Shown here piece after piece: positions 6,093 to 44,935 of a stretch of 49,916 nucleotides of DNA; positions within the stretch are counted from its first letter, which is position 1, and each line of letters begins with the position of its first letter. Made by a program: the position numbers and the translations under genes. Under the pieces are notes generated by a model. It was not told where the DNA came from and did no database searches. It saw only the letters and a list, made by a program, of their open reading frames with translations. The stretch is from a virus: the IMG/VR virus record IMGVR_UViG_3300036045_000016, positions 1-49,916 of that record. The stretch is one strand, 5' to 3'.

Positions 6093-6101
6093 GGAGTTAT
6101 T

Positions 6102-6434
6102 TTGGCTCTTGGTACTGTTACCGAGGTTAAGTCTGGCGTCTTCGGGGACCTGCGCTACGCGGTCCTTGACGTCAACGTGACCTCCGGCGCAAACTACACT
6201 ACGACCGGCGAGCTCTTCTCGCACGTCAACATTCCCGGCTTTAAGGTGAGCCTTCTGGCTGTCTCCGGCTCGCCCGGTGGGTCCGCCGGCTTTGTCGTCG
6301 TCTATGACGCTATCAACGGCAAGTTGATGGCTTTCCGACAGAACGCCACCACCGGTGCGCTCAACGAGGTTCCGGCGAACACGGATCTTTCCTCGGCAGC
6401 GAACCGCGTCCGTCTCATCGCCTTCGGGAAGTAA
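6102..6434 (+). CDS. Small structural protein
   Basis: A 110-aa beta-rich protein starting at TTG with AAGGAG 5-6 bases upstream. Contains LDVNVTSGANYTTTGE... and ends VRLIAFGK. Length, composition and location between terminase and portal suggest a minor head or fibre protein, but no known family can be named with confidence. Confidence 0.55.
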   Translation: MALGTVTEVKSGVFGDLRYAVLDVNVTSGANYTTTGELFSHVNIPGFKVSLLAVSGSPGGSAGFVVVYDAINGKLMAFRQNATTGALNEVPANTDLSSAANRVRLIAFGK

Positions 6435-6729
6435 GATGTTCTCTCGCGAGGGCGCGCCCCCCTTTGATCCGGGCGTCTGTTTCATCTGTGAGCTTGCGCC
6501 TACAGATGGCTTCGTCGATACACTTCGGGAGTTTGATGCCGGGTACTTCAACCCGCTCAACGGCCGGAAGGTTGTCTGTCTGTCTTGTGTGACTGGTCTC
6601 GCTGACGCGATCGGCTGGTCCGAGAACAAGAGCGCGCAGGGGAAGCTCAAGGCCTCCCAGGCAAAGCTGGCAGAGGCAGGCAATCGTATCGACGCCGCGC
6701 TCAAGGCCCTCTCCGAGCCTTCGGCTTAA
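6435..6729 (+). CDS. Zinc-knuckle coiled-coil protein
   Basis: A 97-aa protein from ATG 6435, chosen because it follows the preceding stop directly; the open frame extends upstream. Cys pairs CFIC (about 16-19) and CLSC (about 48-51) could bind one zinc ion. Residues 60-95 (NKSAQGKLKASQAKLAEAGN...) are predicted as a helical coiled coil. It lies between terminase and portal, so a packaging accessory role is possible but unproved. Confidence 0.6.
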
Positions 6730-7004
6730 TGGACGAGGGCCTTGTTGCCCAACTCCTTGAGATCAACAAGCAACTAACGGAGCAGATTGTCGAGCTCTCT
6801 CGGGAGCTTGCACAGACTAAGGCGCCTGTTTGGGCGCCTACCGCTCCTATCAAAACCCGCTCGTTCCCGCTGCATGTGTCGGAGAACGAGGAGGACGCGC
6901 AATACCTCCTCTCTACCGGGCAGATCAGTAAGGACGAGTACGAAGACGTACTCAAGGAGATCGGGTTCATGAACGCTGAAATCACAGTCCCGGTCGGTTT
7001 GTAG
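6729..7004 (+). CDS. Small helical phage protein upstream of portal
   Basis: A 91-aa protein. The ATG overlaps the previous stop (TAATGG). An N-terminal amphipathic helix (LLEINKQLTEQIVELSREL) is followed by a Pro-rich linker and an acidic C-terminal segment. No family is recognised. Tight spacing to the portal gene suggests co-expression. Confidence 0.55.
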   Translation: MDEGLVAQLLEINKQLTEQIVELSRELAQTKAPVWAPTAPIKTRSFPLHVSENEEDAQYLLSTGQISKDEYEDVLKEIGFMNAEITVPVGL

Positions 7005-7018
7005 AGAGGAGGTGAGCC

Positions 7019-9490
7019 GTGGCAGACACAAGCGGTTCAACGCGCACTAAGCCCCTCTCACAACTCAAGACCGTAGAGGATCTGTGCCAAAAGCTAGAGG
7101 CCCTAAGAACACATAGGACACCGTTGGAGCGCCAGTGGCGGCTCAACCTGGCGTTCTACAAGGGCCGGCAGTACACGTATTACGCTCCCCGCTCTGACCG
7201 GCTGGAGACACTCGGGGTGGACGAGGGCACCAAGCCTCGCCATCGCGTCCGGGTGGTCTCTAACCAGATCATGCCGGGAGCACACACGCTGCTCGCGCAG
7301 CTCACCAAGACCAAGCCGCGACTCTTTGCCACCCCCGGCTCTGGGGCCGAGAATGAAGTCCGTGCTACCCAGATGGCTCAGTCGCTTCTTGAGTATTGGT
7401 GGACGGATATCGGACTCGACGAGAAGCTGGACGAGGCTCTCCTCTGGAGCATTGTCGCCTCGGCCGGTTACTGGAAGATCACCTGGGACCCGTTCGCTGC
7501 CAAACAGATGCGCTTCACATTGGGGCCAGATGGGCAGCCGATCGTTGACGAGGCCCTGAAGGCCGAGTTTAAGCGCAACCTAGAGCAGTACGGTATCGAG
7601 CCGGAAGAGAAGATCGTCTACATGGGCGATGTGAAGGTGGATGTCATGTCCCCCTTCGATGTCTTCCTCGACCCCACCGCCAAGACTTTCGAGGAATCGA
7701 AGTACGTCATCTGTCGCCATTCGATGGATCCCGATGACATCAAGGCGCAGTGGGGTAAGGATCTTCTTCCCGACGCAGCCCCAGCCTCTCCGGACGCCAC
7801 GATCCCGTACGCCAACGCTGCCGGAGCCCCCGAGCTTTCGGTGCGCAACATCTACATCGCTTACTTCAAGCCTGGCGCCTCGATGCCGGACGGCCGCTAC
7901 GTCGTCTTCACCGAGGGTCAGGAGAAGCAGATTCTCGCAGACGAGAAGTGGCCTTTCCCCCACAACCAGCTCCCGCTGGTCAAGTTTGCCGGCATGCGCG
8001 TCCCTGGGTCGGTCTACGACGATTCCGTTGTTACCCACGCCGTCCCGATCCAGAAAGAGCTTAATCGCACCCTTTCGCAGATCATCGAGTACAAGAACCT
8101 CACGGTTAACCCTCGTATGATCGCTCCCCGTGGCTCGCTTAGCACGAGGCCCACCACGGAGCCCGGGCAGGCAATTGAGTTCGACCTCCTTCCCGCCGGC
8201 ACTGGTTATGCCAAGCCGGAGTGGGAGCAGGTGCCGGCCCTTCCGCCCTACATCCTGGAAGTACTGAACAACGTTCAGCAGCGCCTCTCCGACATCTTTC
8301 TCTCGGCTGAGGTTCTCCAGGGCAAGGTGCCGCCGAACGTCGAAGCCGGCGTAGCAATCGACCTCCTGCAGGAGATGGCGACCGACAAGTTGGCGCCGAT
8401 CATCAAGCTCCTGGAGACGTCGCTAGCCCGCGCAGGTCAGCAGATGCTCGGTCTCGCCCAGACCCACTACGTCGAGCCGAGGCTCCTGAAGATCAGGGGA
8501 TCCGGCGGGGGCGTTCAGGTAAAGCAGTTTATCAACTCAGATATCACCGGGAACATCTCCGTGCACGCGGAGACAGGCTCGGGCCTTCCGCGCACTCGCG
8601 CAGGCAGGCAAGCAAGGATTGAGCGGCTGATCGAGATGGGTGTGGTTCCTGTGCATCAGGCCCACAAGTACCTCGACTTGGCCGATCTCTCCGGGCTGGA
8701 AGCTCAGATGGCGGCAGACGAGAACCTCGCTTACCGCAACATCGACAAGATCCTCGAAGGAAAGCCGATCAACCCCGAAGCCGCGCAGCAGGCCATGATG
8801 GCCGTTAACCAAGGCCTCGACCCACAGACCGGCGAGCCCCTAGAGTCCCCAGAGCACGCGCAGCAGGTCCTCATTCAGGCCGCGCTGTCACCCCAGCCCG
8901 GAATCGACTTCGCAACGCATCTTGCGGTCACGTCGATGTTCATGAAGGGGATCGAGTTCGAGGGCCTAGGTACGGATACCCGACAGGGTTTCTTCACGTA
9001 CTTCGCTGCACTGCAGCAGGCCGCTCAGGACAACGCCCCGCAGGCAGAGCCGCAGGCTCCGAGGGTCAACCTCCAGATCAAGAGCACTGCTGGTCCGGCC
9101 ACTCAGACCAAGATCCTCCAGAAGGCCGGCGTGCCGGTTGAGGAGGAAGACGCGCTTGAGCCTCCGCTGCTCACGTGGGTTTCGGACGATGTGGACGAGC
9201 CTGATACGGACGCTACCGGCCCCGGTCAGGAAGGTAACAACCTAACCGAAGCCGCGCTGGCGGTTCTCGAAGCCAAGACAGCGGACGCTGAAGTGAAACG
9301 TGCCGCGTTGCGAGATGACGAGGCTAAGGAGCTCGACTCGGTAACGAAGTCTAATGCAGACCTCCGTGCCGAAGAACTCCACGGGCAGGCCGTACGGAAG
9401 GCGTCAGCAGACGCCGACCTGGCTGAGAAGAAGGCTAAGGAGTCTAACTTCAAGCCTAAACCAGCCCCAGCCAAGCCGAAAGGTAAGTAA
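7019..9490 (+). CDS. Portal protein
   Basis: An 823-aa protein with a GTG start preceded by GAGGAGGTG. The N-terminal core shows features of podovirus-type portals: WRLNLAFYKGRQY, an LTKTKPRLF strand-helix near residue 97, the VKFAGMRVPGSVYDDSVV wing region, and TLSQIIEYKNLTVNP. The C-terminal third (about 740-823) is a Lys/Ala/Asp-rich barrel-like helix ending KPKPAPAKPKGK. It forms the dodecameric DNA gate at the head vertex and docks the terminase. Large size and gene order agree. Confidence 0.85.
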   Translation: MADTSGSTRTKPLSQLKTVEDLCQKLEALRTHRTPLERQWRLNLAFYKGRQYTYYAPRSDRLETLGVDEGTKPRHRVRVVSNQIMPGAHTLLAQLTKTKPRLFATPGSGAENEVRATQMAQSLLEYWWTDIGLDEKLDEALLWSIVASAGYWKITWDPFAAKQMRFTLGPDGQPIVDEALKAEFKRNLEQYGIEPEEKIVYMGDVKVDVMSPFDVFLDPTAKTFEESKYVICRHSMDPDDIKAQWGKDLLPDAAPASPDATIPYANAAGAPELSVRNIYIAYFKPGASMPDGRYVVFTEGQEKQILADEKWPFPHNQLPLVKFAGMRVPGSVYDDSVVTHAVPIQKELNRTLSQIIEYKNLTVNPRMIAPRGSLSTRPTTEPGQAIEFDLLPAGTGYAKPEWEQVPALPPYILEVLNNVQQRLSDIFLSAEVLQGKVPPNVEAGVAIDLLQEMATDKLAPIIKLLETSLARAGQQMLGLAQTHYVEPRLLKIRGSGGGVQVKQFINSDITGNISVHAETGSGLPRTRAGRQARIERLIEMGVVPVHQAHKYLDLADLSGLEAQMAADENLAYRNIDKILEGKPINPEAAQQAMMAVNQGLDPQTGEPLESPEHAQQVLIQAALSPQPGIDFATHLAVTSMFMKGIEFEGLGTDTRQGFFTYFAALQQAAQDNAPQAEPQAPRVNLQIKSTAGPATQTKILQKAGVPVEEEDALEPPLLTWVSDDVDEPDTDATGPGQEGNNLTEAALAVLEAKTADAEVKRAALRDDEAKELDSVTKSNADLRAEELHGQAVRKASADADLAEKKAKESNFKPKPAPAKPKGK

Positions 9491-27141: not shown

Positions 27142-27235
27142 GGTAGAATCCGCTAAAAGTAAACACTAGGGGGTGGGCGCCAGCTCAGTGGGCATCGGCG
27201 CCTACCTCACTACTTGGCGGCGAAGGGAGTACCTA

Positions 27236-28171
27236 GTGCCTCAGTCTAGGGATCAAGCTAGAGGGTCGAGGGTACCCAACCTGAGGGATACCAACCTCCC
27301 CCCCGGAGAGCGATATCTCCAACTGGTATCTGACCACCACGACCGGGGAGGAACGTTGCTCTTCGACCATTATCTAGAGCGCCTGGAACGGCGGGGGCGC
27401 TCCCCCCTGACGAAGGGGAACTACTGCCGCGCAACGAGTAAGTTCCTGCAGTGGCTCTTTGATAACAACCTCTCTCCGGAGTCGGTTGAGCCGTACCAGG
27501 TGGAGGAGTTCTTCGACCAGTTGCCGCACGCTCCGTCTACCAAGCGGCTGATGCTGGCGAACATTCGGGCGGCGTACCGCTATGCCCACCGGCGGGGGAT
27601 GGTGCCGAGGGATCCGACCTTCGAGGTTGACCTCCCGGAGCCTCAACGAGAAAAGCCCCGCATCCTGTCCTCGATGGAGCTGAGGCGGATACGGGACAAC
27701 TGCTACACGGAGCGACAGGCGCTTCTGTTCCACATGCTGGCCTACACTGGCTGCCGGCGGAATGAGATTCGTCTGATGCGGTGGAGCCAGGTCTCGCTGG
27801 AGGACAACACCTTGTCTGTCCACGGGAAGGGGGACAAGTATCGGCTGGTGCCGATCCACCCCGCCCTGGGGGAGCTGCTCTCAGAGGCGCAGAGCGAGCC
27901 TGAGCACGCTATCCTGCCTGGACCCTACGGAGAGCCGCTGAGCTTACGCAGACTGTGGGGAGTGCTCAGGGAGCTTACCCCCACTGCCACCTGCCACGAC
28001 TTCCGTCGTACAGCAGCGTCGAGTCTGGACGCCAACGGCGTCGAGGAGAGCCTGATCTTTGAAATCATGGGATGGGCACCGAAGACCATCTTCGGCAAGT
28101 ACTACCGCCACGTCGCTTCGGAGCGACTACAACAGGCGATCCTGCAGCTCTATCGCAACGATCCGCTATAG
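27236..28171 (+). CDS. int: Tyrosine recombinase (integrase)
   Basis: A 311-aa protein. GTG 27236 is chosen because AAGGGAG lies six bases upstream; the frame is open from 27173. An N-terminal SAM-like core-binding domain (about 30-120) is followed by the catalytic domain with Arg in GCRRNEIRL, Lys in HGKGDKYR, HxxR in CHDFRRTAA, Trp replacing the last His in GWAPKT, and the Tyr nucleophile in KYYRHV. It should integrate the phage genome site-specifically. No attP core could be identified without the host sequence. Confidence 0.9.
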   Translation: MPQSRDQARGSRVPNLRDTNLPPGERYLQLVSDHHDRGGTLLFDHYLERLERRGRSPLTKGNYCRATSKFLQWLFDNNLSPESVEPYQVEEFFDQLPHAPSTKRLMLANIRAAYRYAHRRGMVPRDPTFEVDLPEPQREKPRILSSMELRRIRDNCYTERQALLFHMLAYTGCRRNEIRLMRWSQVSLEDNTLSVHGKGDKYRLVPIHPALGELLSEAQSEPEHAILPGPYGEPLSLRRLWGVLRELTPTATCHDFRRTAASSLDANGVEESLIFEIMGWAPKTIFGKYYRHVASERLQQAILQLYRNDPL

Positions 28172-31032: not shown

Positions 31033-31307
31033 GGATCCCTTTCTAGGTAGTCGGCCGCACGACGGAGCCACTCAGGGTCGATCCACGACGGTAGCGCTCG
31101 GTTGCAACGATGGCACAGGAGCCCCCTGATGACCAACTCATGATGATCGTGGTCTAGGTCAAGCTTACGCTTGGGGTTCGGTGCCTTACCACAAATGGCG
31201 CATCCGCCTTTCTGTGCTTCGAGCATGGCGTCATAGTGAGGCCGTGCAGATTTTAGAAGGAGCGCGTGTTTGTTCGGCTTCCTCCTACGTCTAGAACTTC
31301 CAGTCAT
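31008..31307 (-). CDS. Recombination endonuclease VII-like HNH nuclease
   Basis: A 99-aa protein with CAICG, LDLDHDHH and RGLLCHRCNRAL, the zinc-bound beta-beta-alpha metal site of the Endo VII family. Such enzymes cut Holliday junctions and branched DNA, which clears the DNA before packaging. The C-terminal helix (WLRRAADYL) is also typical. Overlaps the helicase gene end. Confidence 0.8.
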   Translation of the reverse strand: MTGSSRRRRKPNKHALLLKSARPHYDAMLEAQKGGCAICGKAPNPKRKLDLDHDHHELVIRGLLCHRCNRALPSWIDPEWLRRAADYLERDPWPLSETM

Positions 31308-32643
31308 CCGGAGTGGATGCTAGGAGCTCAGTTCGATTCTCATCTCGATCGGCAATCTGCACCGTGATGATCTCTCCGCCAAGCCTACGGCGGGACTTGT
31401 ACTGCGTCATGTAGAACTTACCGGGGATATCTGTGCCCCGGATATCAAGTGCAGCATCGACCACCGCCGTAATGTCACCAGAGCCACGGGACCGCTGGAA
31501 GCTAGTAGCGGTGTCCGACTTGATCGCATGGTGTACGACGATGACAGCCGCGCCGGTCTCTCGGGCCAAGGGCTGAATAGCCTCCCGGAACAACCGCGCC
31601 ATGCTATTCGCGCTGTTCTCGTCCTCCGAGTGAATGCGGGAGAGCGAGTCGATTACGATTAGCGAGGGATTCAGCTCTAGCGCTTCGTCTAGGAAGGCAT
31701 CCGGCTCCTTGTTCATCCAGATGCCGGGTCGGTACAGGTAGTGAATGCGCTTAGCTCCGGCCTTAGTCAGCGAGAGCTTCCTGAACCGATTGTAGATTAT
31801 GTCTTCGGGGTTCTCCTCATCGATGTAGAGGACCTCCCCGTGCTTCTTCACCGCTCGACCAAGCCAGCTTTCTCTGCCGTCTGCGACGGCGACTGCGAGG
31901 GACATGGTAAGCCAGGACTTCCCGATACCGGGATCGCCCATGAACAGGTTTACGTCCCCCTCACAGATCAGATTGTCTACTAGCCAGTCGATCGGCGGGG
32001 GTTCTGCAGTTAGGTCTAGCTCCGTGAAGCGCCGTTCCGGGTTGGCGGTGCGCTTACAAAGCTCTCGGAGAATAGCCACATCAAAGGTATCGAAGAAGTC
32101 ACAGGTGTCCTTGATACCCACCGGGAGACTAACCCGCCGGGCCTTCGCCCCCAGGTCAGCTCTAATCTGCTTCCAGCACGCATCAACACGAGCCTTTACA
32201 TTATAGTCCTCGTCGTTGTCTAGGACCACCCACACCCGCTCTGCGTCAGCAAAAGTCTTGGCATAGGCTGGACGCCAGGCTTCGATACCCGACAGTCCGA
32301 TTACCGACACCGCCCCACCAACTTCCTGATGGAGACGCATAGTGTCTGTCTCGCCCTCGACGAGGAACATCTGTTTCGTTCCGGGCACGTTAGGGACGTG
32401 GTAGAGACTTAGGTCACGCCCTGCGGTGAAGCGGAACCCTCTGTTCTGACCGGGCTCAAGGGAGGAGGGATCAAGCCGGCTCTTCTCTCCACCGGCGGGG
32501 TAGGGAAAGATGATCCGATCCCCACTCTGGTGGACGCCGAACTCGGCTAGTGTCTCGGCTGTAATCCCTCGCTTATCCCTGAACCAGTCTAGGATTTGCT
32601 GTTCGATGTTAGGTTGTCTTTGTTGGTTGCTAGGCAATACCAA
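31291..32643 (-). CDS. Primase-helicase-like protein (Toprim + RecA-like ATPase)
   Basis: A 450-aa protein, TTG start. Residues 14-75 resemble the primase RNAP subdomain start (WFRDKRGITAETLAEFGV..RIIFPY). Toprim motifs are FLVEGETD (93-100) and VVLDNDED (139-146). The ATPase has Walker A GDPGIGKSW (236-244) and Walker B LIVIDSLS (328-335), closer to RepA-like helicases than to T7 gp4. No zinc domain is present at the N-terminus; a separate zinc ribbon gene overlaps upstream. Confidence 0.8.
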   Translation of the reverse strand: MVLPSNQQRQPNIEQQILDWFRDKRGITAETLAEFGVHQSGDRIIFPYPAGGEKSRLDPSSLEPGQNRGFRFTAGRDLSLYHVPNVPGTKQMFLVEGETDTMRLHQEVGGAVSVIGLSGIEAWRPAYAKTFADAERVWVVLDNDEDYNVKARVDACWKQIRADLGAKARRVSLPVGIKDTCDFFDTFDVAILRELCKRTANPERRFTELDLTAEPPPIDWLVDNLICEGDVNLFMGDPGIGKSWLTMSLAVAVADGRESWLGRAVKKHGEVLYIDEENPEDIIYNRFRKLSLTKAGAKRIHYLYRPGIWMNKEPDAFLDEALELNPSLIVIDSLSRIHSEDENSANSMARLFREAIQPLARETGAAVIVVHHAIKSDTATSFQRSRGSGDITAVVDAALDIRGTDIPGKFYMTQYKSRRRLGGEIITVQIADRDENRTELLASTPDDWKF

Positions 32644-32750
32644 CAGACCCGGGGGTCATCTTTCAACCCGGTGGTCAAGTGCCAGGTTCTCTTCTTACAG
32701 GTGTAGCACTTTCGAAGGAGGAAGACCGCCGGCCTAGTATCCTTGCTCAT
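32589..32750 (-). CDS. Free-standing zinc ribbon, likely the missing primase zinc domain
   Basis: A 53-aa protein with CYTC (15-18) and CWYC (36-39), which makes a classical four-Cys zinc ribbon, flanked by aromatic and basic residues. ATG 32750 overlaps the HD gene end and the 3' end overlaps the helicase gene by 55 bases in another frame. T7-type primases start with such a domain fused to the Toprim region; here it seems to be a separate polypeptide. Easily missed because of its size. Confidence 0.65.
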   Translation of the reverse strand: MSKDTRPAVFLLRKCYTCKKRTWHLTTGLKDDPRVCWYCLATNKDNLTSNSKS

Positions 32751-33303
32751 CGTCTAGGATCTGGTAGTAGCGGAGCAGGAACCAGCCCTTAGCCTGCTCG
32801 GGTGTCCACGGCTCGATCTTGTGATCGAGATACTCGTAGCCCTCCAAGCGTAGCCCGTCCGGCATTAGGTCCCGCTGCTCGCTTCGGAGCAACACGTTGT
32901 CCGCAACCTTCACCGACGGCGGTACCTCTAGCGGCAGATTGAATTTGTAGGCCACCGCCCTTTGGAGAGCTGCCTCAGCGACCCGGTAAACCTCTCCTAG
33001 CCCGGGCTGCTGCTTGATGGGCCGGGAGATGTCAGAGAGATAGGCCTCAGAAGCATCGTGGAGTAGTCCCCACATAGCGTCCTCTTCGGGCACGAGCTTA
33101 GACACCCGGACAGAGTGCTCGGCTACGGAGTAGAACTGCTTGGTGTGGCCTGTGAACCGGCACTGGTTCGATAGCGCGTGGGCAACATCGACAATACTGA
33201 TGAGCCACGGGTTAGGATCCAGCGGCTTGATGCGTACCCCGCTGAAGGTCATGATCTCATCGGGGGCCTTCTCAAGAACCATCCCCCTATAGATCATTGG
33301 CAC
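32734..33303 (-). CDS. HD-domain nucleotide phosphohydrolase
   Basis: A 189-aa protein. The HD signature is complete: H in NQCRFTGHTKQFYSVAEHSVRVS, the HD pair in LLHDASEAYLSD, and Asp in VADNVLL. This layout is that of YfbR-like 5'-deoxynucleotidases common in phages, which adjust dNMP pools for replication. It overlaps both neighbours, so it is part of the replication operon. Confidence 0.7.
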   Translation of the reverse strand: MPMIYRGMVLEKAPDEIMTFSGVRIKPLDPNPWLISIVDVAHALSNQCRFTGHTKQFYSVAEHSVRVSKLVPEEDAMWGLLHDASEAYLSDISRPIKQQPGLGEVYRVAEAALQRAVAYKFNLPLEVPPSVKVADNVLLRSEQRDLMPDGLRLEGYEYLDHKIEPWTPEQAKGWFLLRYYQILDDEQGY

Positions 33304-33673: not shown

Positions 33674-33928
33674 TTACGGGGTGATGCTCGGGAAGTAGCT
33701 GGACAGAATCTTACGTGCTTCCTCCCTGGTAATCAGATCTGCCAGGGCAAGATCCTTCACTGCCGCAGCAATGTTCGGGATGTAGAGGATCTGGCTGTAA
33801 ACGTGGTCGAGGTCAACGTTAGCGTACTCGTAGCCCTCGGGGAGCTCAAGGTCAACGTCAAACTCGAAGTCGTCTAGGTTGTCGTTCTCATCGCCAGGGT
33901 CAGAGAACGTCGTGAATTCGTTACTCAT
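33674..33928 (-). CDS. Small acidic protein
   Basis: An 84-aa protein with a very acidic first half (DPGDENDNLDDFEFDVDLELPEGYEY), then a helical half. It overlaps the end of the polymerase C-terminal gene by four bases (ATGA). No homology is recognised. Such proteins may mimic DNA or act as partners for basic replication proteins, but this is speculation. Confidence 0.55.
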   Translation of the reverse strand: MSNEFTTFSDPGDENDNLDDFEFDVDLELPEGYEYANVDLDHVYSQILYIPNIAAAVKDLALADLITREEARKILSSYFPSITP

Positions 33929-34827
33929 ACAAAGACCGCCTTTTCAGAATTGGATATAGGTCTTGAAGCTTCAGTTTCATCTCTAGCGGCAGGGCTGCCC
34001 AGATCGTCCTCTCGTCCATCGAGACGGGATAGCGACTCTTCGAGGCTTTGCTTTTCTGCCCAACTGGTCCAGGAGATTTCTGTGTCACAGCCAATAGGCA
34101 CAACCTTGTCTACAACTTCCGGCACCATCAGCTTCGGTACCGCAGTTGTGAGTTCAGAGAGCTCGGATTCCCGGCAGTCGAGCATCAGCTCGTCGTGTAC
34201 TACGTTGACAATCCGGGACTCCAACTCGTTGTCGATTAGGTAGTTGTGCACCGACACGAAGGCCGCTCGCATCACGTCGGCTGCGCAGCCCTGAATCAGG
34301 GCATTGAGCGCTACGTGAGGAGAGTGCGGGTGTAGGTGCCGACCATAGAGGGTGGTGATGTACCCCCGAGAGGCGAGACGCCTCTGCAGGGCTCCGGGGC
34401 CTTCGCCCCGACTGTAGCCCCCATTTCTAAACGGGGGATTGTGGAGCTGCTTGATGGCCGGCCAGGTCTCGTCGAACCTGTCCCTCAGTAGCCGGGCTCT
34501 AGCCAGGGGGATACCGAGAGAAACGCTGGCCTTATACGGCCCGCCACCGTAGATCGTCAGGAAGTTGTAGGTCTTCCCGACCTGTCGTTCCTCGTCCGTA
34601 GGAGCTCGATCGAGCTCCAGTACAGCCTTTGCGCTGGCTGTATGCAGGTCCTCGCCGGCGATGAACACTTCTGCCATAGCCCTGTCAGAGACAGGGGGGA
34701 TGGCACAGTAGAAGGCAAGGAGGCGGTACTCGATCTGCTGATAGTCGAAGAACAGGAAGCAGTCACGCTTCGGGACAAAGCCCGACTTGATGGTCTTATC
34801 GGCTCTCGGGATCGTTTGAACGTTCAA
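33925..34827 (-). CDS. polA: DNA polymerase I (family A), C-terminal palm-fingers part of a split enzyme
   Basis: A 300-aa protein from TTG 34827. It begins directly at NVQTIPR, the element that in intact polymerases follows TGR(L/M)SS. Motif A FDYQQIEYRLLA (27-38), motif B RQVGKTYNFLTIYGGG (81-96) and motif C VVHDEL (209-214) are intact, so the catalytic Asp residues are present. The tail after 260 is unusual and Ser/Glu-rich. It cannot be active alone because thumb and exonuclease lie in another gene 500 bases upstream. Confidence 0.85.
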   Translation of the reverse strand: MNVQTIPRADKTIKSGFVPKRDCFLFFDYQQIEYRLLAFYCAIPPVSDRAMAEVFIAGEDLHTASAKAVLELDRAPTDEERQVGKTYNFLTIYGGGPYKASVSLGIPLARARLLRDRFDETWPAIKQLHNPPFRNGGYSRGEGPGALQRRLASRGYITTLYGRHLHPHSPHVALNALIQGCAADVMRAAFVSVHNYLIDNELESRIVNVVHDELMLDCRESELSELTTAVPKLMVPEVVDKVVPIGCDTEISWTSWAEKQSLEESLSRLDGREDDLGSPAARDETEASRPISNSEKAVFV

Positions 34828-35338
34828 TAGACTCCCTTAGAGCCTCTAGCTTCGTCGAGGAGAGCATCTTCTCTAGCAGTCCCGGCCCTCCCTTGTAGTC
34901 CTCCTGGGTGAACCAGAGCCACGGCTGGCCGCTTGGTCCAAAGATAAGAAGATCCTTCTCAGCTTTCGCCGCTTTACGAATCGTGTCCCAGGTCCCACCA
35001 CTTTCGAGATCCCAGAACGCCACGACGTCATCAGCAAGGTCAACAAGCTCCTGATTTCGTTTGAGGCCGGCGCCTTTCCCGTACTTCTTCCAGTTGGGCC
35101 GGACCTCGATAAGCGGGAGGGCATTGGCTTTAGCGAAGTTGGCTGCCCAGGTGTCGGGGCCTGCGGCCCCGCCTGAAACAACCGTCGTCCCGATCAGCTC
35201 GTCCATGAAGGACTCAACGTATGCGCGACCAAGGCCGGCAATGCGTTCCCGCCCCTCGTCATCGAGCTGGTTATCCCACCACTCCTTTGTGACGGGGTAG
35301 GTACGGGATCCGACTACGGCGATACTATGCTTCGGCAC
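34796..35338 (-). CDS. SLOG-like (DUF2493-type) nucleotide-binding protein inserted in the polymerase locus
   Basis: A 180-aa protein from GTG 35338. The Rossmann start HSIAVVGSRTYP, then TTVVSGGAAGPDTWAANFAKANALPLIEVRPNWKKYGKGAGLKRN, and DDVVAFWDLESGGTWDTI are typical of the YspA/DUF2493 branch of the SLOG superfamily, which binds nucleotides or related ligands. The gene overlaps the polymerase N-terminal gene by 14 and the C-terminal gene by 32 bases. It has no HNH, GIY-YIG or LAGLIDADG motif, so it is not a standard homing endonuclease. Confidence 0.75.
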   Translation of the reverse strand: MPKHSIAVVGSRTYPVTKEWWDNQLDDEGRERIAGLGRAYVESFMDELIGTTVVSGGAAGPDTWAANFAKANALPLIEVRPNWKKYGKGAGLKRNQELVDLADDVVAFWDLESGGTWDTIRKAAKAEKDLLIFGPSGQPWLWFTQEDYKGGPGLLEKMLSSTKLEALRESIERSNDPESR

Positions 35339-36296
35339 GGCCCGAGCTCATACGGCCCGTAACGGTACCGTGCTGACGGATGTTGGGGTGTAGGATTCCG
35401 TTCACTGTCTCTTCCCGCATGGGAATTAGGTAAGTTGAATACATCTTCTTAAGCGCTCTCAGTTCTAGAAGGGCCTGGGCGAAGTCGTCATTAATCTCGC
35501 GCAGGTTGTGTGCGTCATACGAGTCACGTACCTCGTTTACGCCTTCGTAGTACGCCTTGATCTGGGGGTTGGAGTTCGGATTGAACTTACCCTCGGGGGT
35601 CTTCTGTCCGCTCTTCTCGGGGTACCAGACCTCCAACCCGAGAATGTCCTGAATAGCCCACTCCGCTCGAAGGATCCGAGCCGAGTAGTCTTTGATCGTC
35701 TCGTTGACGTACGCCTCGCTTACGCCTAGGCCATCTGCCTCCATCTCCAGCAGCGCCCACGTCAGATCCATTTCCATCTCGTAGAGCCTCAGTAGATCGG
35801 GGTAGGCTTGAACCTGGGGGTAGAGCAGGTGAAACAGGCGCCAGGTGTACTCGGCGTCCTTGATGGCATAGGGGATCAGGATGGGGCGGGGGACTTTCGA
35901 GAACCCGTCGATCTTCTTGTTGATCCCGTTAGCCTTCTTACGCACATAGGCTACGAGCTCGTCTTCCTCTGGAGTCTCCTCTTTGAGGAGCTCCCGCGTT
36001 AGGTACTTCAGCTTCTTCGGCCGGTGCTCGTCGAGCAGGTGCGCAAGCGCTTCGGTGTCGTGTATACCTCGCTTACGCCTAGGAATGACACCTGCGAGGA
36101 TGAGCTTCTGGAGGTCGAACTTCGCGTTGTGGAAGATCAGATAGCCGGCCGTGTTGATGCGAGCCGAAACTTCGGCCCGCTCGGAGGGTAGCTCTAGCCA
36201 GTGTGAATACGTGCCGTCGTAGAGCGAAGCCCCAAAGGCTTCGTCATAGAAGCTAACTCCGGTTGTTTCGGTATCAACGGCCAACAGGCTGCTCAT
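35325..36296 (-). CDS. polA: DNA polymerase I (family A), N-terminal exonuclease-thumb part of a split enzyme
   Basis: A 323-aa protein. The 3'-5' exonuclease motifs are intact: Exo I DTE (8-10), Exo II NAKFD (57-61), Exo III YAIKD (143-147). The thumb and the start of the palm follow, and the protein stops just after TGRMSS (313-318) with five extra residues (GRAEA). The next expected polymerase residues start the gene at 34827. There is no 5'-3' exonuclease domain, as is usual for phages. Confidence 0.85.
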   Translation of the reverse strand: MSSLLAVDTETTGVSFYDEAFGASLYDGTYSHWLELPSERAEVSARINTAGYLIFHNAKFDLQKLILAGVIPRRKRGIHDTEALAHLLDEHRPKKLKYLTRELLKEETPEEDELVAYVRKKANGINKKIDGFSKVPRPILIPYAIKDAEYTWRLFHLLYPQVQAYPDLLRLYEMEMDLTWALLEMEADGLGVSEAYVNETIKDYSARILRAEWAIQDILGLEVWYPEKSGQKTPEGKFNPNSNPQIKAYYEGVNEVRDSYDAHNLREINDDFAQALLELRALKKMYSTYLIPMREETVNGILHPNIRQHGTVTGRMSSGRAEA

Positions 36297-37130: not shown

Positions 37131-37964
37131 TTACTCTCCTGTCTCCACCATCGCCCACCCGAGCGTTTTCGGCCCGACCGGCATGGCGGCTTCGAGGCCA
37201 CAGGCGTAGGCGTCGCGGAGCCCACGGGCGAGCCGGTCGGCGGGCTCGCCGTGCCACCCGGCCAGGGACGCATACTCCGAGGTGAGAGCGGCCCAGGCGG
37301 CCCAGGCGTTCCAGGCGTCCCCGTCGGCCCCGGCGCTCCAGGCGTCCCCGGCGGCGGGGGCGGCCCCGGCGTCCAAGGCAGCCCAAGCATCCCGGGCGTA
37401 CCAGATGGCCCCGGCAGTCCAGGCGTTCCAGGCGTTCCAGTCCCGGGCGTCCCGGACGGCCCCGGCGGTCGGATAGTGTCGGAGCGCCCAATTGTCGAGG
37501 CCCCGGTGCTTGAGAGCGGTGCGCAGGGAATACTCCACGCGCTCGTTGTCCTGTTCGGGCCGGGAGAGGGCGTAACGCCAGTGCATCTGTGACGTAGCCA
37601 TCCGAACGGCGTGCTTCCCGAACGGCTCCGACATACGCCCCACTGCCCTCTCGACCTCCCCTTCATCTAGTACCCCGAGGATCGTCAGTCGTGAGCACCG
37701 CAGCTTGACACCGCGTTCCACGGTGTCGCGGGATCCCCGCACGTGCAGCAGCACAGACGGCCGCCCGCTAGGCCACAGTCCGCCGATGCGCAACGCATCC
37801 TCCGGCTTTGCGCAGAAGTGCCAACCGGGGGCGCACGAATTCGGGCCGGTGTCCAGGGTCACCTTGTCGAGCGTCTTGCGCTTCCCGTCCCATACGGGCG
37901 GGCCGCCCTGGATCGGCGGGCGATAGTCGTGGGTTAGGACTTTGTAGCCTTCTCTCGTGATCAC
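37131..37964 (-). CDS. Ala/Trp-rich repeat protein with DUF7666-like N-terminus
   Basis: A 277-aa protein. The N-terminal third ([12 protein letters not shown]...[14 protein letters not shown]) matches a phage domain (DUF7666 type) with the GWHFC element. Residues 170-240 are degenerate Ala-Trp repeats such as [26 protein letters not shown]. The extreme C-terminus is duplicated downstream. Likely function unknown; the repeats probably form a helical or beta-solenoid array. Confidence 0.65.
37139..37191. repeat. 53-bp direct repeat, copy B
   Basis: Identical to 36716-36768. This copy is in its native context, encoding the last residues of the Ala/Trp-rich protein before the stop. Distance between copies is 423 bases, with one complete gene in between. 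Confidence 0.9.
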
Positions 37965-38323
37965 GCCTCTGGCCCAGGCCCGATAGGAGTCAGGGGCCGA
38001 CCCTCGATTTCGCCTTCATAGGAAGCTCCATCTCCCTCCCATACCGGTTCGGACACGGTACGAACACGACACTCGGTGACGATCACGTCGCCAGGGAGAG
38101 GAATCCCGTCGCCTCCGGAGCGGGCCGTTGCCTCGTTCCCTCGTAGCTCGCAGTCTGCCGCGTACCCATTGAAGGGGTCGATGATCTGGCTACTGTACTC
38201 AAGCTGGTAGGGCATGTAAGGGGGTGTAGGCTTAGGATCCCCCGAGACGGTAAGCACTACAGCGACGACTAGGACGACACCTAGACCGCCGGCGAGGGCG
38301 TATGCAGCGTAGATGAGTTTCAC
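37961..38323 (-). CDS. Membrane-anchored small protein
   Basis: A 120-aa protein with an N-terminal hydrophobic segment (about residues 5-27, YAAYALAGGLGVVLVVAVVLTV) followed by a hydrophilic Pro-rich domain with two Cys. It is probably anchored in the membrane with the domain outside. It overlaps the ERF and the Ala/Trp-rich genes by four bases each. Function unknown. Confidence 0.55.
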   Translation of the reverse strand: MKLIYAAYALAGGLGVVLVVAVVLTVSGDPKPTPPYMPYQLEYSSQIIDPFNGYAADCELRGNEATARSGGDGIPLPGDVIVTECRVRTVSEPVWEGDGASYEGEIEGRPLTPIGPGPEA

Positions 38324-38781
38324 CAGCCGTCTCCGTCGTCATCCGCAATTGGGTAGATGGCTGCTGATGCGGCTCGTGCGGCCTTTGACTTGGGCACCCC
38401 CCGGCTCTTCTTGGTAGCTGCCTCAGCGTCGTCGTCCTCATCGGCCACCAGGCCGAGAGCAGCCATCAAGGCATAGCGACGTGCGTACGTAATCGCGCTC
38501 CCCTGGCCCTGTGGGTCATCCTTCGCCAGCACCAGGAGCATGGTGTCCTCGATGGATTCCCCGGTTTCCTCGTGCACGATCGACGTGCGCAGGGCAGGCT
38601 CACCACCTACGGTGGTGGGAAGCTGCAGAAGGAGCAACCCGTTCGAGTTCAGCACCGGGAGGATCTGCTCCATCAGGGAGTCGAGACTGATGTATCGGTT
38701 CTTGAAGTGTGGATTGATGCTGTTCTTTTGTAGACTAGGTGCGCTCTGCTGGACTGCTAGGAGCGCTGAGTAGAGGCTCAA
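38320..38781 (-). CDS. erf: ERF-family single-strand annealing recombinase
   Basis: A 153-aa protein from TTG 38781, preferred over the longer frame because the upstream part overlaps the nuclease gene. ERF features: LLAVQQSAPSLQKN..NPHFKNRYISLDSLMEQILPVLNSNGLLLLQLPTT and SAITYARRYALMAALGL. A basic and acidic tail follows. It anneals single strands, presumably with the PD-(D/E)XK nuclease encoded just upstream. Confidence 0.75.
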   Translation of the reverse strand: MSLYSALLAVQQSAPSLQKNSINPHFKNRYISLDSLMEQILPVLNSNGLLLLQLPTTVGGEPALRTSIVHEETGESIEDTMLLVLAKDDPQGQGSAITYARRYALMAALGLVADEDDDAEAATKKSRGVPKSKAARAASAAIYPIADDDGDGW

Positions 38782-39616
38782 TGTGTTCGTATCCTTTCCG
38801 TGGTACGTAGATCCCCTCCACGTACTCTCCAATCTTGGTCGTACCCTGCTTATTGCAGTCGCAGAGAGAGTCGTCGTAGGGGCAGAACTGACATGACCAG
38901 TGCGGTACGAGCTTTAGCTCGTATTTGTCACCATTGCGATAGAGCTTCTGGACACGAGCCATAGGCTCGGCCAGGGCTGCCGTCACGAACTTCCCACTAT
39001 CGGGAAGGGAGCTTAGGTATTCCTTAGTGAGCTCCCACCGGGCTTCCATCTCCCCCCATACCTGATCCCGGGGAAGGGGCATCGTCTCTACGATGGTGGG
39101 CGTCGGAGGCTCTCCGGCCCTCATGTCGTCATTCAACGGCAGGTACATCACGAACACTCGCTTACGCAGAGGAAACTTCCCTGCCGCTAGCGCCCAATAG
39201 TACGCGGATAGCTGCCAGAGATGCTCCTCTTTCGGGCCTTCACGTACATAGGGCAGGCCCTCGCCCTTGATGGTCTTTAGGTCGCCTAGGATAAAGGCTC
39301 GGTCAGTGGGGCTATAGAACACCCAGTCGGCCGTCCCGGCCCACCCATCAGGTAACCATGGCTCGCAGTTGACCTCGGTAATGGTCAACCCCTTCTTGAC
39401 TAGAAGTTCTTGGTAGTACTTGTGCCAGAGAGTGCCGGTCATGAGGCGGATCCTCGATACGAGGGGTTCCTCATTCCGGGGTGCTCCGGCTACTCGAAGT
39501 TGGGAGTGTCGCAGGGGGCCGATCAGGTCACCACTAGGGTGCAGCAACCCATCGTTAGGCCGATCATCAGCCACCAGCCCCGCCTGTAGGATCCCAACGA
39601 GGTCAAACGGAAGCAT
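38735..39616 (-). CDS. PD-(D/E)XK exonuclease (Cas4/RecB-like) with C-terminal Cys cluster
   Basis: A 293-aa protein from ATG 39616 (GGAGG just upstream; the frame is open to 39673). Nuclease residues lie in GTADWVF, ILGDLKTIKG and HLWQLSAYYWAL. The C-terminus has CQFCPYDDSLCDC, a cluster that in Cas4/AddB-type enzymes holds Fe-S or zinc. With ERF it makes a phage recombination pair. Confidence 0.75.
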   Translation of the reverse strand: MLPFDLVGILQAGLVADDRPNDGLLHPSGDLIGPLRHSQLRVAGAPRNEEPLVSRIRLMTGTLWHKYYQELLVKKGLTITEVNCEPWLPDGWAGTADWVFYSPTDRAFILGDLKTIKGEGLPYVREGPKEEHLWQLSAYYWALAAGKFPLRKRVFVMYLPLNDDMRAGEPPTPTIVETMPLPRDQVWGEMEARWELTKEYLSSLPDSGKFVTAALAEPMARVQKLYRNGDKYELKLVPHWSCQFCPYDDSLCDCNKQGTTKIGEYVEGIYVPRKGYEHIEPLLSAPSSPAERT

Positions 39617-39768
39617 AGACCTCCATAGGGAGTTATTTATATCCCGGAATCTGTGCTCTTCAAGGCAGTCCACAGAGGGTAGTCCGCCCGTTGTATCCTC
39701 GGGCTGGTGCCCCTCAGGGGAGAGGTTTCCCTCTCTGCCATCCGGTAGGGCTACTGTAGCACATATTC

Positions 39769-41447: not shown

Positions 41448-41693
41448 CTATGCGCTCGGTCGGTTCATGATTTCTTTCAGGGCAACCCGACACCCAGAGC
41501 ACATAGAGCCGGCTCTAATAGACATACCCTGTGGTTTGTACTCGCTAAGGCGAGTCCGGTTAAACGCCCCAAGGGGGCGACCACAAAGCCCTTGGTTATT
41601 TTGTCCGATGATACACCGCTCCGAACTGAATTCGCCGCTGAAAAAGCTACGATACCGCGTTTGTATAGTTACCGCAGGCCCCTGACGCCTCAT
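41448..41693 (-). CDS. Zinc-knuckle small protein
   Basis: An 81-aa protein, ATGA overlap with the end of the amidotransferase gene. Pattern C-I-I-G..GLCGRP...SMCSGCRVALKEIM is a variant of the CG..CPACREIM pattern of the next gene, so the two are likely diverged paralogues. Basic and probably nucleic-acid- or protein-binding. It is co-expressed with the ligase set. Confidence 0.6.
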   Translation of the reverse strand: MRRQGPAVTIQTRYRSFFSGEFSSERCIIGQNNQGLCGRPLGAFNRTRLSEYKPQGMSIRAGSMCSGCRVALKEIMNRPSA

Positions 41694-43039
41694 GCCGGCG
41701 CCTCCGCAGCCATTTCACTCGACCACTCTGCCCATACCTCGTTCTCTACGTCACTGTAGAGTACATCGAGGTCATTGTAGAGTTCAGTGTGCTTCTCGCT
41801 TGTCACGTTCGCGTGAAAGAGCATGTACTGGATGAGCTGTTCGGGGATGCCGGATGACGCAGCCATGCGGCTGATTGTCCGCTTATGGACGAAGGTGTCT
41901 AGGTCTGCGAGGTCAAGTAGGGACTCCCATTCGTTTTGCGAGAATTTATAGTAGTCCGCCGGACTGTTTGAGACACCAGCCGTCTCCTTCTCCTGGGTGC
42001 TCAGCATGCTGCGGCAGTCCAAGCACATATCGCCGTAGTCCAGCACAAAGGCCATGTGAATCTCTGCGACGACGCCCTTACAGTGTCGGCATGTGTGCCA
42101 CTTACCGTTATGCTCATTCCAGAACTCCGGGTCGGCATCCACCCTTTCCTCCCAACGGATAGCCAAACCCTGATTGGCAGCCCGAATCAGGCCTACTGCC
42201 TTCTCAAAGTCAGCAGTCTGCACGACCCCGTTCGGGGTCTGACGCTCCCAGCCGGTCTTACAGGCCGGGGCTTTGAAGTCTCCGTCCCACGACTTTGTGC
42301 TCACATACTTCTTTGTCTCGAAGTCGTCGAGACGCCTAATACCATCCTTGGTCACCGACAGTGCCACGCCGGAGATTAGGTAGTCCGTGAACATGTCCTT
42401 GTGGGGGACTTGGTTAGTGATAGCCTTCCAGGCTCGCTGGATCGCTACCTGGGTCGAAGCCCAGACAACAATGTTCTCGGTTTCGATGGTGACGAGGGGA
42501 CTAGTTGGCCCCTTGAGCAGCAATACCCGGTTCCGGTCATCGGTGTTCACCGCCGCGACAGCGAAAGATCCCGACAGCATCTTGGTAGCTTCCTGATAGT
42601 TGTCGAGTCCGTGGTGGTCAAGAGCTGCGGCGACTGCCTGGCTGTCTACCTCGGCCGATCGCTGAATACCAAGCTCCCGGAACACTTCGTCGTCGTTCGT
42701 GATGTGGCCGTTGTGGGTTAGAAATGTTGAGCCAAGCATCACCGGATGGTTATTGGCCCACACACTCTCGTGTCCCTTGGTGACATAGCGGGTATGTGCC
42801 AGAGCGGCATGGCAGGTGTCGAGCAGCCGGCGACGAGCCTTGATGAAGGTAGAAGCGCTGAGCGCTTTCTTCTCGATGCTGATCTTGTTTGCTCCAACAG
42901 ACAGGACGCCGGTAGCGTCTTTGCCTCGCGGCTCAATACCAAGTAGTAGTTCGTCAAGGAAGCGCTCCAAAAGGCCACGCTGCCCGCTTTCGTGCAACAC
43001 GTCTGGGTTCTTTAGAAAGAACCCGGCAATACCACAAAT
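41690..43039 (-). CDS. Class II glutamine amidotransferase with probable ATT start
   Basis: A 449-aa protein. The frame opens at a TAG; AGGAG lies six bases before ATT 43039, which is followed by TGT GGT ATT GCC GGG TTC TTT, giving M-C-G-I-A-G-F-F, the invariant N-terminus of this class where Cys2 becomes the nucleophile. The next conventional start (GTG 43000) would delete it. Other sites: LAHTRYVTKG, NNHPV, LTHNGHITN. A C-terminal domain follows with a CRHC...CLDC zinc pair. It releases ammonia from glutamine for the ligases beside it. Confidence 0.85.
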   Translation of the reverse strand: MCGIAGFFLKNPDVLHESGQRGLLERFLDELLLGIEPRGKDATGVLSVGANKISIEKKALSASTFIKARRRLLDTCHAALAHTRYVTKGHESVWANNHPVMLGSTFLTHNGHITNDDEVFRELGIQRSAEVDSQAVAAALDHHGLDNYQEATKMLSGSFAVAAVNTDDRNRVLLLKGPTSPLVTIETENIVVWASTQVAIQRAWKAITNQVPHKDMFTDYLISGVALSVTKDGIRRLDDFETKKYVSTKSWDGDFKAPACKTGWERQTPNGVVQTADFEKAVGLIRAANQGLAIRWEERVDADPEFWNEHNGKWHTCRHCKGVVAEIHMAFVLDYGDMCLDCRSMLSTQEKETAGVSNSPADYYKFSQNEWESLLDLADLDTFVHKRTISRMAASSGIPEQLIQYMLFHANVTSEKHTELYNDLDVLYSDVENEVWAEWSSEMAAEAPA

Positions 43040-43048
43040 AGTGTTCTC

Positions 43049-44935
43049 CTACTCGTCGTCATCTTCGATATCATCAGCAGGGAAATACTCAAGCCGGTCT
43101 TCGTCCTCGAACCCGTCGTACTCGATGTCCTCAAGTGGGACACTAGGATCCCGAGCCAGCGCAAGCTCCACGCCTCGTCGGGAGGCGGGATTTCGTGGGG
43201 CCTTCTTAGAGAACCCCTCTGCTTGTGGAAGATCTAGCAAGGAATCCAGATAGACCGGCCCGAGATTTACAAGCTGGCTCTGCTTACAGGCATAGACCAA
43301 GGAGTCCCGCTCCGCCGCCGTTAATGGCAGGTTGATGTGCATCCACTCAAGTCGCGCTTTGATTCCCCTTTTCTCAGTGATCCTAAGCCCATTCCAGTTC
43401 TGTTCCCTCCAGGGAAGAAATACGAAGTCTTCTGGAACGAAGTCCTCCCGAGCGTGTGCCCAGGCTGTCAAGGCCTGTTGTACGGCCAGCCATGCGTGCA
43501 AAATCCGAGGCGTAATCTCGGCATTCCATAGCCGCCACTCAGCGGTAGCCTTACCAAGGTTGCACTGGCAAAGGTCAAACATCCCGGCCCTGTATGCCCC
43601 ACATTCACAGTTGCGAATAGCGGACATGTAGTTTGAAAGATTTAGCCCATGGCGACTCGGTCTATATTCACGAGCAAATTCCAGCACCGAGGAATATGGG
43701 CCGTAATCATCCGGCCGAGAATAAGAAGAGCCCTGAATGGATCGGTGAGACTCAGAGCCGGAACCCGCCAAAAAGTATAGTGGGGCTTCGAGATACCGAA
43801 ACATATGGTGATAGACCCACAAATCCCGCATGTTGAAGTCGTGAAGGTCGATGTGGATATGTCCTCCGGCACGGTGCGAGAACACGATATCTCCGATTTC
43901 ACGCAGCCCACGCAGTACCTCGGTTACGCGAAGCAATGCTGCCGCATGATTCTCGCTGTCCAAGTCCAGGAGGTAGGAGACAAGCTCCCCCCCTGAGACA
44001 GAGCTGTCTCTCTTGAGAACACACGGGGTACGTGACGTACTGTCTCCGTCTGCCGTGTAGCGGGCCAGTTGCCCGTGACCCACTAGACCGGCGCTATTTA
44101 GCACTTGGAGTGCAGTCGGGCCGGATCCGTCAAATTCCGTCTCAATCGAGACGGTGCGAATCGGACGTGCGTCGGAGCTCGGCAGCAACATAGAGCCAGA
44201 TGAGGGAAGTTCTTCGGGACTCCACCGCTCAAACTCGGCACGAAGCTCCGTCCGCTTGGCGACCTCGCATATAGGGCAACACCGGCCAACGAAGCTCCTA
44301 AGGACGACATGCCGTGTATGGGGGTGATACAACTCACAAACTGGACATATGCGGCCTATACAGGTGGTGCAATAGCGCCCCCCGCCTTCTGAAGATTCCT
44401 GGAGCTCGTCTTCCAAAAACTCCTGGGCACATCCCGAACAGCGCTCCCGTGGAGCGCAGCTCTCACACAGGGTGAACCGACTCCCTACGGCGAGAAGAGT
44501 ATTACAGCCCTCTACTTCGCAGGCACGAAAGCAGTTGGCACAATAACCGTCCTCTGACAAGGCCAGACCAAAGACGTGGCAATTCTCACATGCTGTTACC
44601 CTGAGACACCCTGGACATGCCCCGAGCGGGGCTGGCACCTCGCAACTGAGACACTGCGGCTCGACCTCGGAGAACCAACGATCGTTGTTCGGGCTATCAG
44701 ACGGCTCGAACGCCCACGTACTCCATACCAAGAAGGTCAGGTACGATGTGGGGGAGAGATTCCCGATAGCGGTAGGCCTAAGTGCAAGGCCGTTCGCGTT
44801 CGCCCAATCGCGCAGTTCGAGGTACCGCCGACGCAACTCAACAGCGGAGATATTCAGCTCTCGCAGGCTTGCGGTGCTCTCGTCGATAGCCTGGAAGCTG
44901 TCGGGAAGCCTACTAATGGACGTAAGAGTCGGCAT
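43049..44935 (-). CDS. Zinc-ribbon amidoligase (GS-like COOH-NH2 ligase)
   Basis: A 628-aa protein. Residues 95-223 hold about nine CxxC-type pairs forming several zinc ribbons. From 262 the amidoligase domain appears: SIETEFDG (263-270), the basic strand LKRDSSVSGGELVS (307-320), GGHIHIDLHDF (357-367) and TAEWRLWNA. Such domains fold like glutamine synthetase and ligate an amine to a carboxylate using ATP. The tail (590-628) is highly acidic. ATG overlaps the stop of a 38-aa gene (TGATG). Confidence 0.8.
   Translation of the reverse strand: MPTLTSISRLPDSFQAIDESTASLRELNISAVELRRRYLELRDWANANGLALRPTAIGNLSPTSYLTFLVWSTWAFEPSDSPNNDRWFSEVEPQCLSCEVPAPLGACPGCLRVTACENCHVFGLALSEDGYCANCFRACEVEGCNTLLAVGSRFTLCESCAPRERCSGCAQEFLEDELQESSEGGGRYCTTCIGRICPVCELYHPHTRHVVLRSFVGRCCPICEVAKRTELRAEFERWSPEELPSSGSMLLPSSDARPIRTVSIETEFDGSGPTALQVLNSAGLVGHGQLARYTADGDSTSRTPCVLKRDSSVSGGELVSYLLDLDSENHAAALLRVTEVLRGLREIGDIVFSHRAGGHIHIDLHDFNMRDLWVYHHMFRYLEAPLYFLAGSGSESHRSIQGSSYSRPDDYGPYSSVLEFAREYRPSRHGLNLSNYMSAIRNCECGAYRAGMFDLCQCNLGKATAEWRLWNAEITPRILHAWLAVQQALTAWAHAREDFVPEDFVFLPWREQNWNGLRITEKRGIKARLEWMHINLPLTAAERDSLVYACKQSQLVNLGPVYLDSLLDLPQAEGFSKKAPRNPASRRGVELALARDPSVPLEDIEYDGFEDEDRLEYFPADDIEDDDE

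Follow-up and report, generated by a model that had tools for sequence, protein, structure and literature searches.

Split phage polymerases are a kind of enzyme that is already known. The gp43A and gp43B proteins of phage 25 co-purify and are active, and the split NrdA of phage Aeh1 is functional (review PMC2988022). In the marine Methylophilales (OM43) phages MEP401 and MEP402, PolA is encoded in two genes with a small open reading frame (ORF) between them, the first gene carrying the exonuclease and the start of the Pol domain and the second the remainder; in the available sections of that report, the split is described for most related metagenomic genomes of the authors' group I, and an intron is left as a possibility (PMC10580990). 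The locus analysed here lies in IMG/VR virus record IMGVR_UViG_3300036045_000016, whose whole stretch of 49,916 nucleotides (nt) is called the window. A preliminary description, made from the letters alone, had proposed that a family-A DNA polymerase is divided there by a SLOG-like gene. This was confirmed, with N half, SLOG gene and C half following one another on the minus strand from 36296 to 33925, each in a different one of the three frames. The features of the locus are the following (aa, amino acids):

35325..36296, minus strand: PolA N half, 323 aa, ATG start; 3'-5' exonuclease, thumb and first part of the palm, with the C-terminal end TGRMSSGRAEA before the stop codon
34796..35338, minus strand: SLOG gene of the YAcAr/DUF2493 type, 180 aa, GTG start; cargo of the gap
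33925..34827, minus strand: PolA C half, 300 aa beginning (M)NVQTIPR, TTG start; palm, fingers and motifs A, B and C
35325..35338, minus strand: overlap of N-half end and SLOG start, 14 nt
34796..34827, minus strand: overlap of SLOG end and C-half start, 32 nt
34832..34838, minus strand: Shine-Dalgarno-like AAGGGAG, 4 nt upstream of the C-half TTG

As described before, the SLOG/DUF2493-like gene sits exactly between the halves and overlaps both. The arrangement is quite probably the outcome of a single ancient break at a hot spot for homing, with the enzyme rebuilt from two chains, the gap serving as a cargo slot and the SLOG protein as its passenger.

Cut site and integrity of the polymerase halves

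The N half matched the Pfam family DNA_pol_A_exo1 (3.6e-11) and the beginning of DNA_pol_A, and the C half matched DNA_pol_A (1.1e-42) from profile position 127 onward. In profile searches with the alignments of the halves, the N half aligned with residues 27–349 of the Klenow chain 1d9d and the C half with 352–595, while on Taq polymerase the N half aligned up to residue 578 and the C half from 580. Since these alignments are complementary on the same solved chains, only about two residues separate the halves, bearing out the earlier claim that the TGRMSS end and the NVQTIPR start are adjacent in intact PolA. The cut falls in one short loop of the conserved motif 1, between TGR(M/L)SS and N-x-Q-x-IPR, at about residues 672–675 of E. 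coli Pol I (between T672 and N675), and this loop touches the primer-template.

All exonuclease and polymerase motifs were also found intact, with catalytic residues present in both halves: D8/E10, D61 and Y143/D147 of the exonuclease in the N half, and D28/E33 (motif A), R81/K85/F89/Y93 (motif B) and H211-D212-E213 (motif C) in the C half. With the exception of F89, which is Leu in seven members, these residues are conserved across the alignments of related halves (12 and 11 members). At the position of E. coli Pol I F762, 13 of the C halves of the 20 split members have Phe and seven (L115, L116, L003, L090, L092, L093 and L094) have Leu, a distribution that follows the tree. The last ~40 aa of the window C half form an unconserved tail. 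AlphaFold2 models of the two window halves, built as single chains, were confident (mean predicted local distance difference test scores of 86.7 and 85.9) and match Pol I structures, being less confident at the new ends (N half 312–323, C half 1–8) and in the C-terminal tail.

Distribution of the split

Searches with the halves and their alignments, which covered the intact, split and SLOG-containing relatives that the preliminary description had asked about, found the same polymerase broken at the same place in 19 further IMG/VR contigs: L002, L003, L007, L090, L092, L093, L094, L096, L115, L116, L199, L200, L202 (also L203), L204, L205, L206, L209, L088 and L201. Because the split recurs in these 19 contigs, an assembly error, raised earlier as a possible refutation, and chance are both excluded. 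Both halves are on the contig in 18 of the 20 cases, the N half of L088 and L201 lying off the contig. When the N and C parts were joined and placed in a tree, all 18 complete split members grouped in a single clade relative to intact relatives (Shimodaira–Hasegawa-like approximate likelihood ratio 100; bootstrap 100, careful tree), with no intact polymerase inside it, and the split has a single origin. In the sets examined, C halves at least 36% identical to that of the window were split, while those at 35% or less belonged to an uninterrupted polymerase frame in the cases examined.

No split member was found among cultured phages, where the best matches, among those listed, showed ~30% identity and were ordinary DNA polymerase I by annotation. 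Bacterial genomes yielded six distant relatives. Of the three examined closely, L193 and L194 were uninterrupted. In L197, a single motif-complete stretch holds the halves in different frames, which was taken as a frameshift.

Gap content and cassette exchange

Gap genes vary by lineage among the 18 complete split members together with L088 and L201. SLOG genes are found in the window, L002, L096 and L116, that is, in 4 of the 18 complete members, and in the 14 others, all fully covered, the gap holds another gene instead. A family-2 glycosyltransferase (GT2) occupies the gap of L200, L201, L202, L204 and L205 (Pfam 7e-14 for L202), a 62-aa protein adjoins the C half in L206, L209, L200 and L201, and a basic protein of ~190 aa is present in L090, L092 and L094. 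Single-motif LAGLIDADG-like proteins are encoded directly 5' of the C half in L003 and L090 (Pfam E 0.07 and 0.02, under the cut-off); they are 40% identical to each other (E 5e-19) and both have the motif WAAGFF(E/D)GEGSV. The gaps also hold a metallophosphoesterase (L003), an EndoVII-HNH gene after the N half (L090), an RNase H (L088) and a reverse-strand tyrosine recombinase (L002). The smallest gaps measure 175–224 nt and are mostly filled by ORFs. Common ancestry of all gap genes was considered and rejected, several of the recurrent families being unrelated to one another.

Exchange between close relatives was seen in L205 and L206, which share ~79% DNA identity across 4.7 kb downstream and carry a GT2 gene and the 62-aa gene, respectively. 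Their homology stops at the stop codon of the N half and restarts at the start codon of the C half. Since the two carry different gap genes and conservation ends at both codons, what turns over is the content and not the split. Across all members, the gap edges showed no conservation on the gap side besides start, stop and Shine-Dalgarno (SD) sequences.

In the window, the 497 nt strictly between the halves contain one open frame, that of SLOG, whose codon usage is also the most phage-like (+0.19); the remaining frames contain stops and score from -0.22 to +0.10. The SLOG gene is therefore considered a real gene. Its product matched phrog_289 (E 2.5e-21) and scored 27.7 bits against YAcAr (Pfam PF10686), for which the cut-off is 28.2 and the gap homologue of L116 reached 30.7; its ligand motifs are intact.

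Translation start of the C half

The stretch upstream of the first codon of the C half in 12 members gave a mean anti-SD duplex energy of -9.2 kcal/mol versus -3.4 kcal/mol for random sequence, with no random mean below -6.4; binding was weak in L088, L092 and L093. In L002, a 16-nt element, ACCTGAGCCAGTAAGG, precedes ordinary genes and also both SLOG and the C half. It occurs in the 10.8 kb at 129, 2949, 4974, 7472 and 10121 (the C half and four other places), where 0.1 occurrences are expected by chance. SD binding in most members and this element indicate that the C half acts as a gene with initiation of its own. The element includes an SD sequence and a stop codon, closes some genes as NLSQ before the stop, and is reminiscent of start-associated sequences in some actinophages.

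The codon at the C-half start position is TTG, GTG or ATG in 15 members. The other five have near-cognate codons, namely CTG in L092 (L092:4001), ATC in L003 (L003:5001) and L094 (L094:4001), ATA in L115 (L115:1615) and ACG in L116 (L116:6465). SD binding there is strong in L115, L116 and L094 and weaker in L003 and L092, and the first canonical start downstream falls past motif A in L116 and L092. Judging from these sites, near-cognate initiation behind an SD sequence would be the simplest reading. In L090, one T too many after ATGAACTT (L090:3991-4010) shifts the C-half frame and is likely a sequencing error.

Origin of the break and alternative explanations

The enzyme would be a naturally split replicative polymerase belonging to a clade of uncultured phages. 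In one ancestor the gene would have been interrupted in the motif-1 loop, most likely by a homing-type insertion at a site favoured by homing elements. Two more distant and otherwise intact polymerases carry inserts in the motif-1 region, few residues from the split loop: L037 has an in-frame intein (5979-7268) at TGRLS^C (Pfam Intein_splicing 2e-11), and L127 a 300-aa in-frame insert (5015-5914) after IDPN with intein-like Cys...Asn-Cys ends. Together with the LAGLIDADG-like and HNH genes in two gaps, these inserts make homing-type insertion the likeliest cause. From then on, the exonuclease/thumb and palm/fingers chains would have been separate translation products of one operon, most likely associating non-covalently to give a functional enzyme. 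Assembly of one enzyme from two chains is most likely the best reading in view of the conserved catalytic motifs in both halves, their complementarity and the C half's own ribosome site, and the assembled polymerase is presumably active. The space between the half-genes would have become an exchangeable slot, running from the stop codon of the N half to the start codon of the C half and filled by unrelated genes according to lineage, with the SLOG protein as the passenger in this phage.

Several observations weigh against this explanation. Near-cognate starts are unusual for an essential protein, and the C half of L090 is in frame from its own ATG only if the extra T is a sequencing error. The insert junctions of L127 are intein-like, but the insert has no Pfam intein match. 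Because the LAGLIDADG matches are weak and the window and most gaps hold no homing endonuclease, the case for a homing origin is indirect. The homing-endonuclease background invoked in the preliminary description thus finds a parallel in the gaps of L003 and L090 and in the inserts of L037 and L127, but not in the window gap, where Pfam and codon-usage scans found no homing endonuclease and SLOG stands alone. Finally, SLOG recurs in four fairly distant members, so a function for it is still conceivable to some extent.

A self-splicing intron (group I or II), with SLOG as its ORF and one polymerase made from the mature mRNA, would agree with phage family-A polymerase genes being classic group I intron sites and with the absence of a canonical C-half start codon in several members, and the MEP401 authors weighed an intron for their own split (available sections of PMC10580990). 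Nevertheless, no Rfam intron was found in the window or 11 relatives, permissive thresholds included, and no conserved splice borders are seen: the gap edges lack conserved sequence and the base 5' of the C-half Asn is not always G. Even the small gaps are mostly ORF-filled, and the window SLOG spans the whole gap and enters both halves. The SD sites at the C half also count against an intron, in which they would be pointless. RNA splicing that joins the halves, the other outcome that the preliminary description had named against itself, is therefore without any sign in these scans, and an intron is very improbable. Joining at the protein level by a split intein is hardly conceivable, despite the inserts resembling inteins that L037 and L127 carry at this motif and the split intein of phage MIJ3 PolB (PMC6892783). 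The N-half tails extend few residues past TGRMSS and the C halves start directly at the conserved N-x-Q motif, so that neither half bears intein sequence; accordingly, no intein blocks were found at the C end of the N half or the N end of the C half in the member alignments.

Half-proteins often mark decay, and the polymerase might be decaying or just one half working, for example as a free proofreading exonuclease, with phage DNA copied by a host enzyme. This is highly implausible, given that the catalytic residues of exonuclease and polymerase are retained in both halves across members at 36–51% identity and that the split has a single ancient origin with long branches and no loss. It is more credible, although still unlikely, that SLOG is a working part of the polymerase, such as an assembly factor, a DprA-like handler of single-stranded DNA or a nucleotide sensor. 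In the four members that have it, the gene adjoins the N half or follows it closely and keeps its ligand motifs, DprA-like scores are also obtained with Pfam, and a one-clade origin of the gap SLOGs was not rejected (approximately unbiased test, p 0.149), the SLOG tree being unresolved as to their vertical inheritance. On the other hand, at least three changes of SLOG are needed on the tree, and this type of SLOG gene is widespread among phages (244 records). Because 14 of the 18 gaps hold other genes and SLOG was not found elsewhere in the contigs of these 14 members (many of them fragments), a passenger is favoured. Of the two options left by the preliminary description, a role in the polymerase is disfavoured and the passenger fits best, possibly with a role of its own, e.g., interfering with nucleotide signals, a general idea for the superfamily.

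Within the explanation by an ancient break and a cargo slot, a tentative extension, somewhat doubtful at present, is that the slot is maintained. Gap genes could not be lost imprecisely without killing the enzyme, would be swapped whole from start to stop, and would set the polymerase level via translational coupling to the weak C-half start (TTG, ATC, ATA, ACG, CTG).

Neighbouring genes and other observations

The halves belong to a replication cluster that also contains the following genes:

31291..32643, minus strand: AAA_25 helicase/primase, same cluster, synteny conserved
32734..33303, minus strand: HD-type deoxynucleotide phosphatase (phrog_318), conserved neighbour
38320..38832, minus strand: Erf-like single-strand annealing protein, upstream gene of the cluster
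38735..39673, minus strand: PD-(D/E)XK (Cas4-like) nuclease, upstream gene of the cluster

Among the loci read, the order nuclease, annealing protein, PolN, gap, PolC, HD phosphatase and helicase is largely common to the window, L002, L003 and L007. A polymerase for aminoadenine (Z-genome) DNA was considered and rejected: the best score of the N half was for DpoZ (NCBIfam, Foldseek), far under the cut-off, and the window has no PurZ-type gene (PF00709). The HD phosphatase (32734-33303) co-occurs with this N half (35325-36296) in the window without PurZ.

A tyrosine integrase (phrog_1) is encoded at 27173-28171 on the plus strand, and the phage is therefore probably temperate; the tyrosine recombinase of L002 lies inside the polymerase gap. 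A protein with a glutamine amidotransferase domain (41690-43000, minus) is followed by one with a weak amidoligase match (43049-44935, minus), a pair unusual in phage. At 37131-37964 (minus), a repetitive ORF has many DAW/NAW-type repeats, with collagen-like PGTPG repeats in another frame.

Implications and comparison with known systems

Reports of split phage polymerases usually present them as isolated curiosities. In the present case, a single break appears to be fixed throughout a divergent clade and the genes in the gap turn over, suggesting that an essential enzyme may remain divided for long while unrelated genes enter and leave the cut. The clade offers natural pairs for testing the assembly of a two-chain polymerase, and it allows a direct look at the possible passage from a homing-type break to a long-lived gene slot. 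It is also a warning for annotators, since gap genes such as SLOG or the glycosyltransferase need not concern replication.

The window SLOG shares with phage YAcAr/DUF2493 SLOG proteins (PF10686, phrog_289) the fold family and the ligand motifs SGGAxGxD, RN and FWDxxSxGT, but unlike them it sits between polymerase halves and has a C-terminal extension of ~45 aa. As in the T4-like gp43A/gp43B of Aeromonas phages 25 and 44RR and in Aeh1 nrdA, an essential enzyme gene is interrupted at a conserved critical site with both parts kept; in those systems separate polypeptides reassemble and a homing endonuclease lies in or near the split (PMC2988022). However, gp43 is a family-B polymerase and NrdA a ribonucleotide reductase, whereas the window clade has a family-A enzyme and many unrelated cargo genes, with no endonuclease in the window. 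The introns of SPO1-like and Bastille phages and the MIJ3 PolB split intein (PMC6892783) likewise show conserved polymerase sites housing mobile elements, but those are removed by RNA or protein splicing, and no splicing element was found at the window locus. MEP401 is cut after NLQNFDGEIKTLFLSRYGE, just before motif A and ~20 residues later than the window clade, so its split is regarded as a separate event in a distant phage; a varying gap content, as found here, is not described for MEP401/MEP402 in the available sections of PMC10580990. What is new, as far as the searches reach, is the cut site in motif 1 common to the members, its fixation across the clade and the exchange of cassettes; these searches covered part of the literature and collections.
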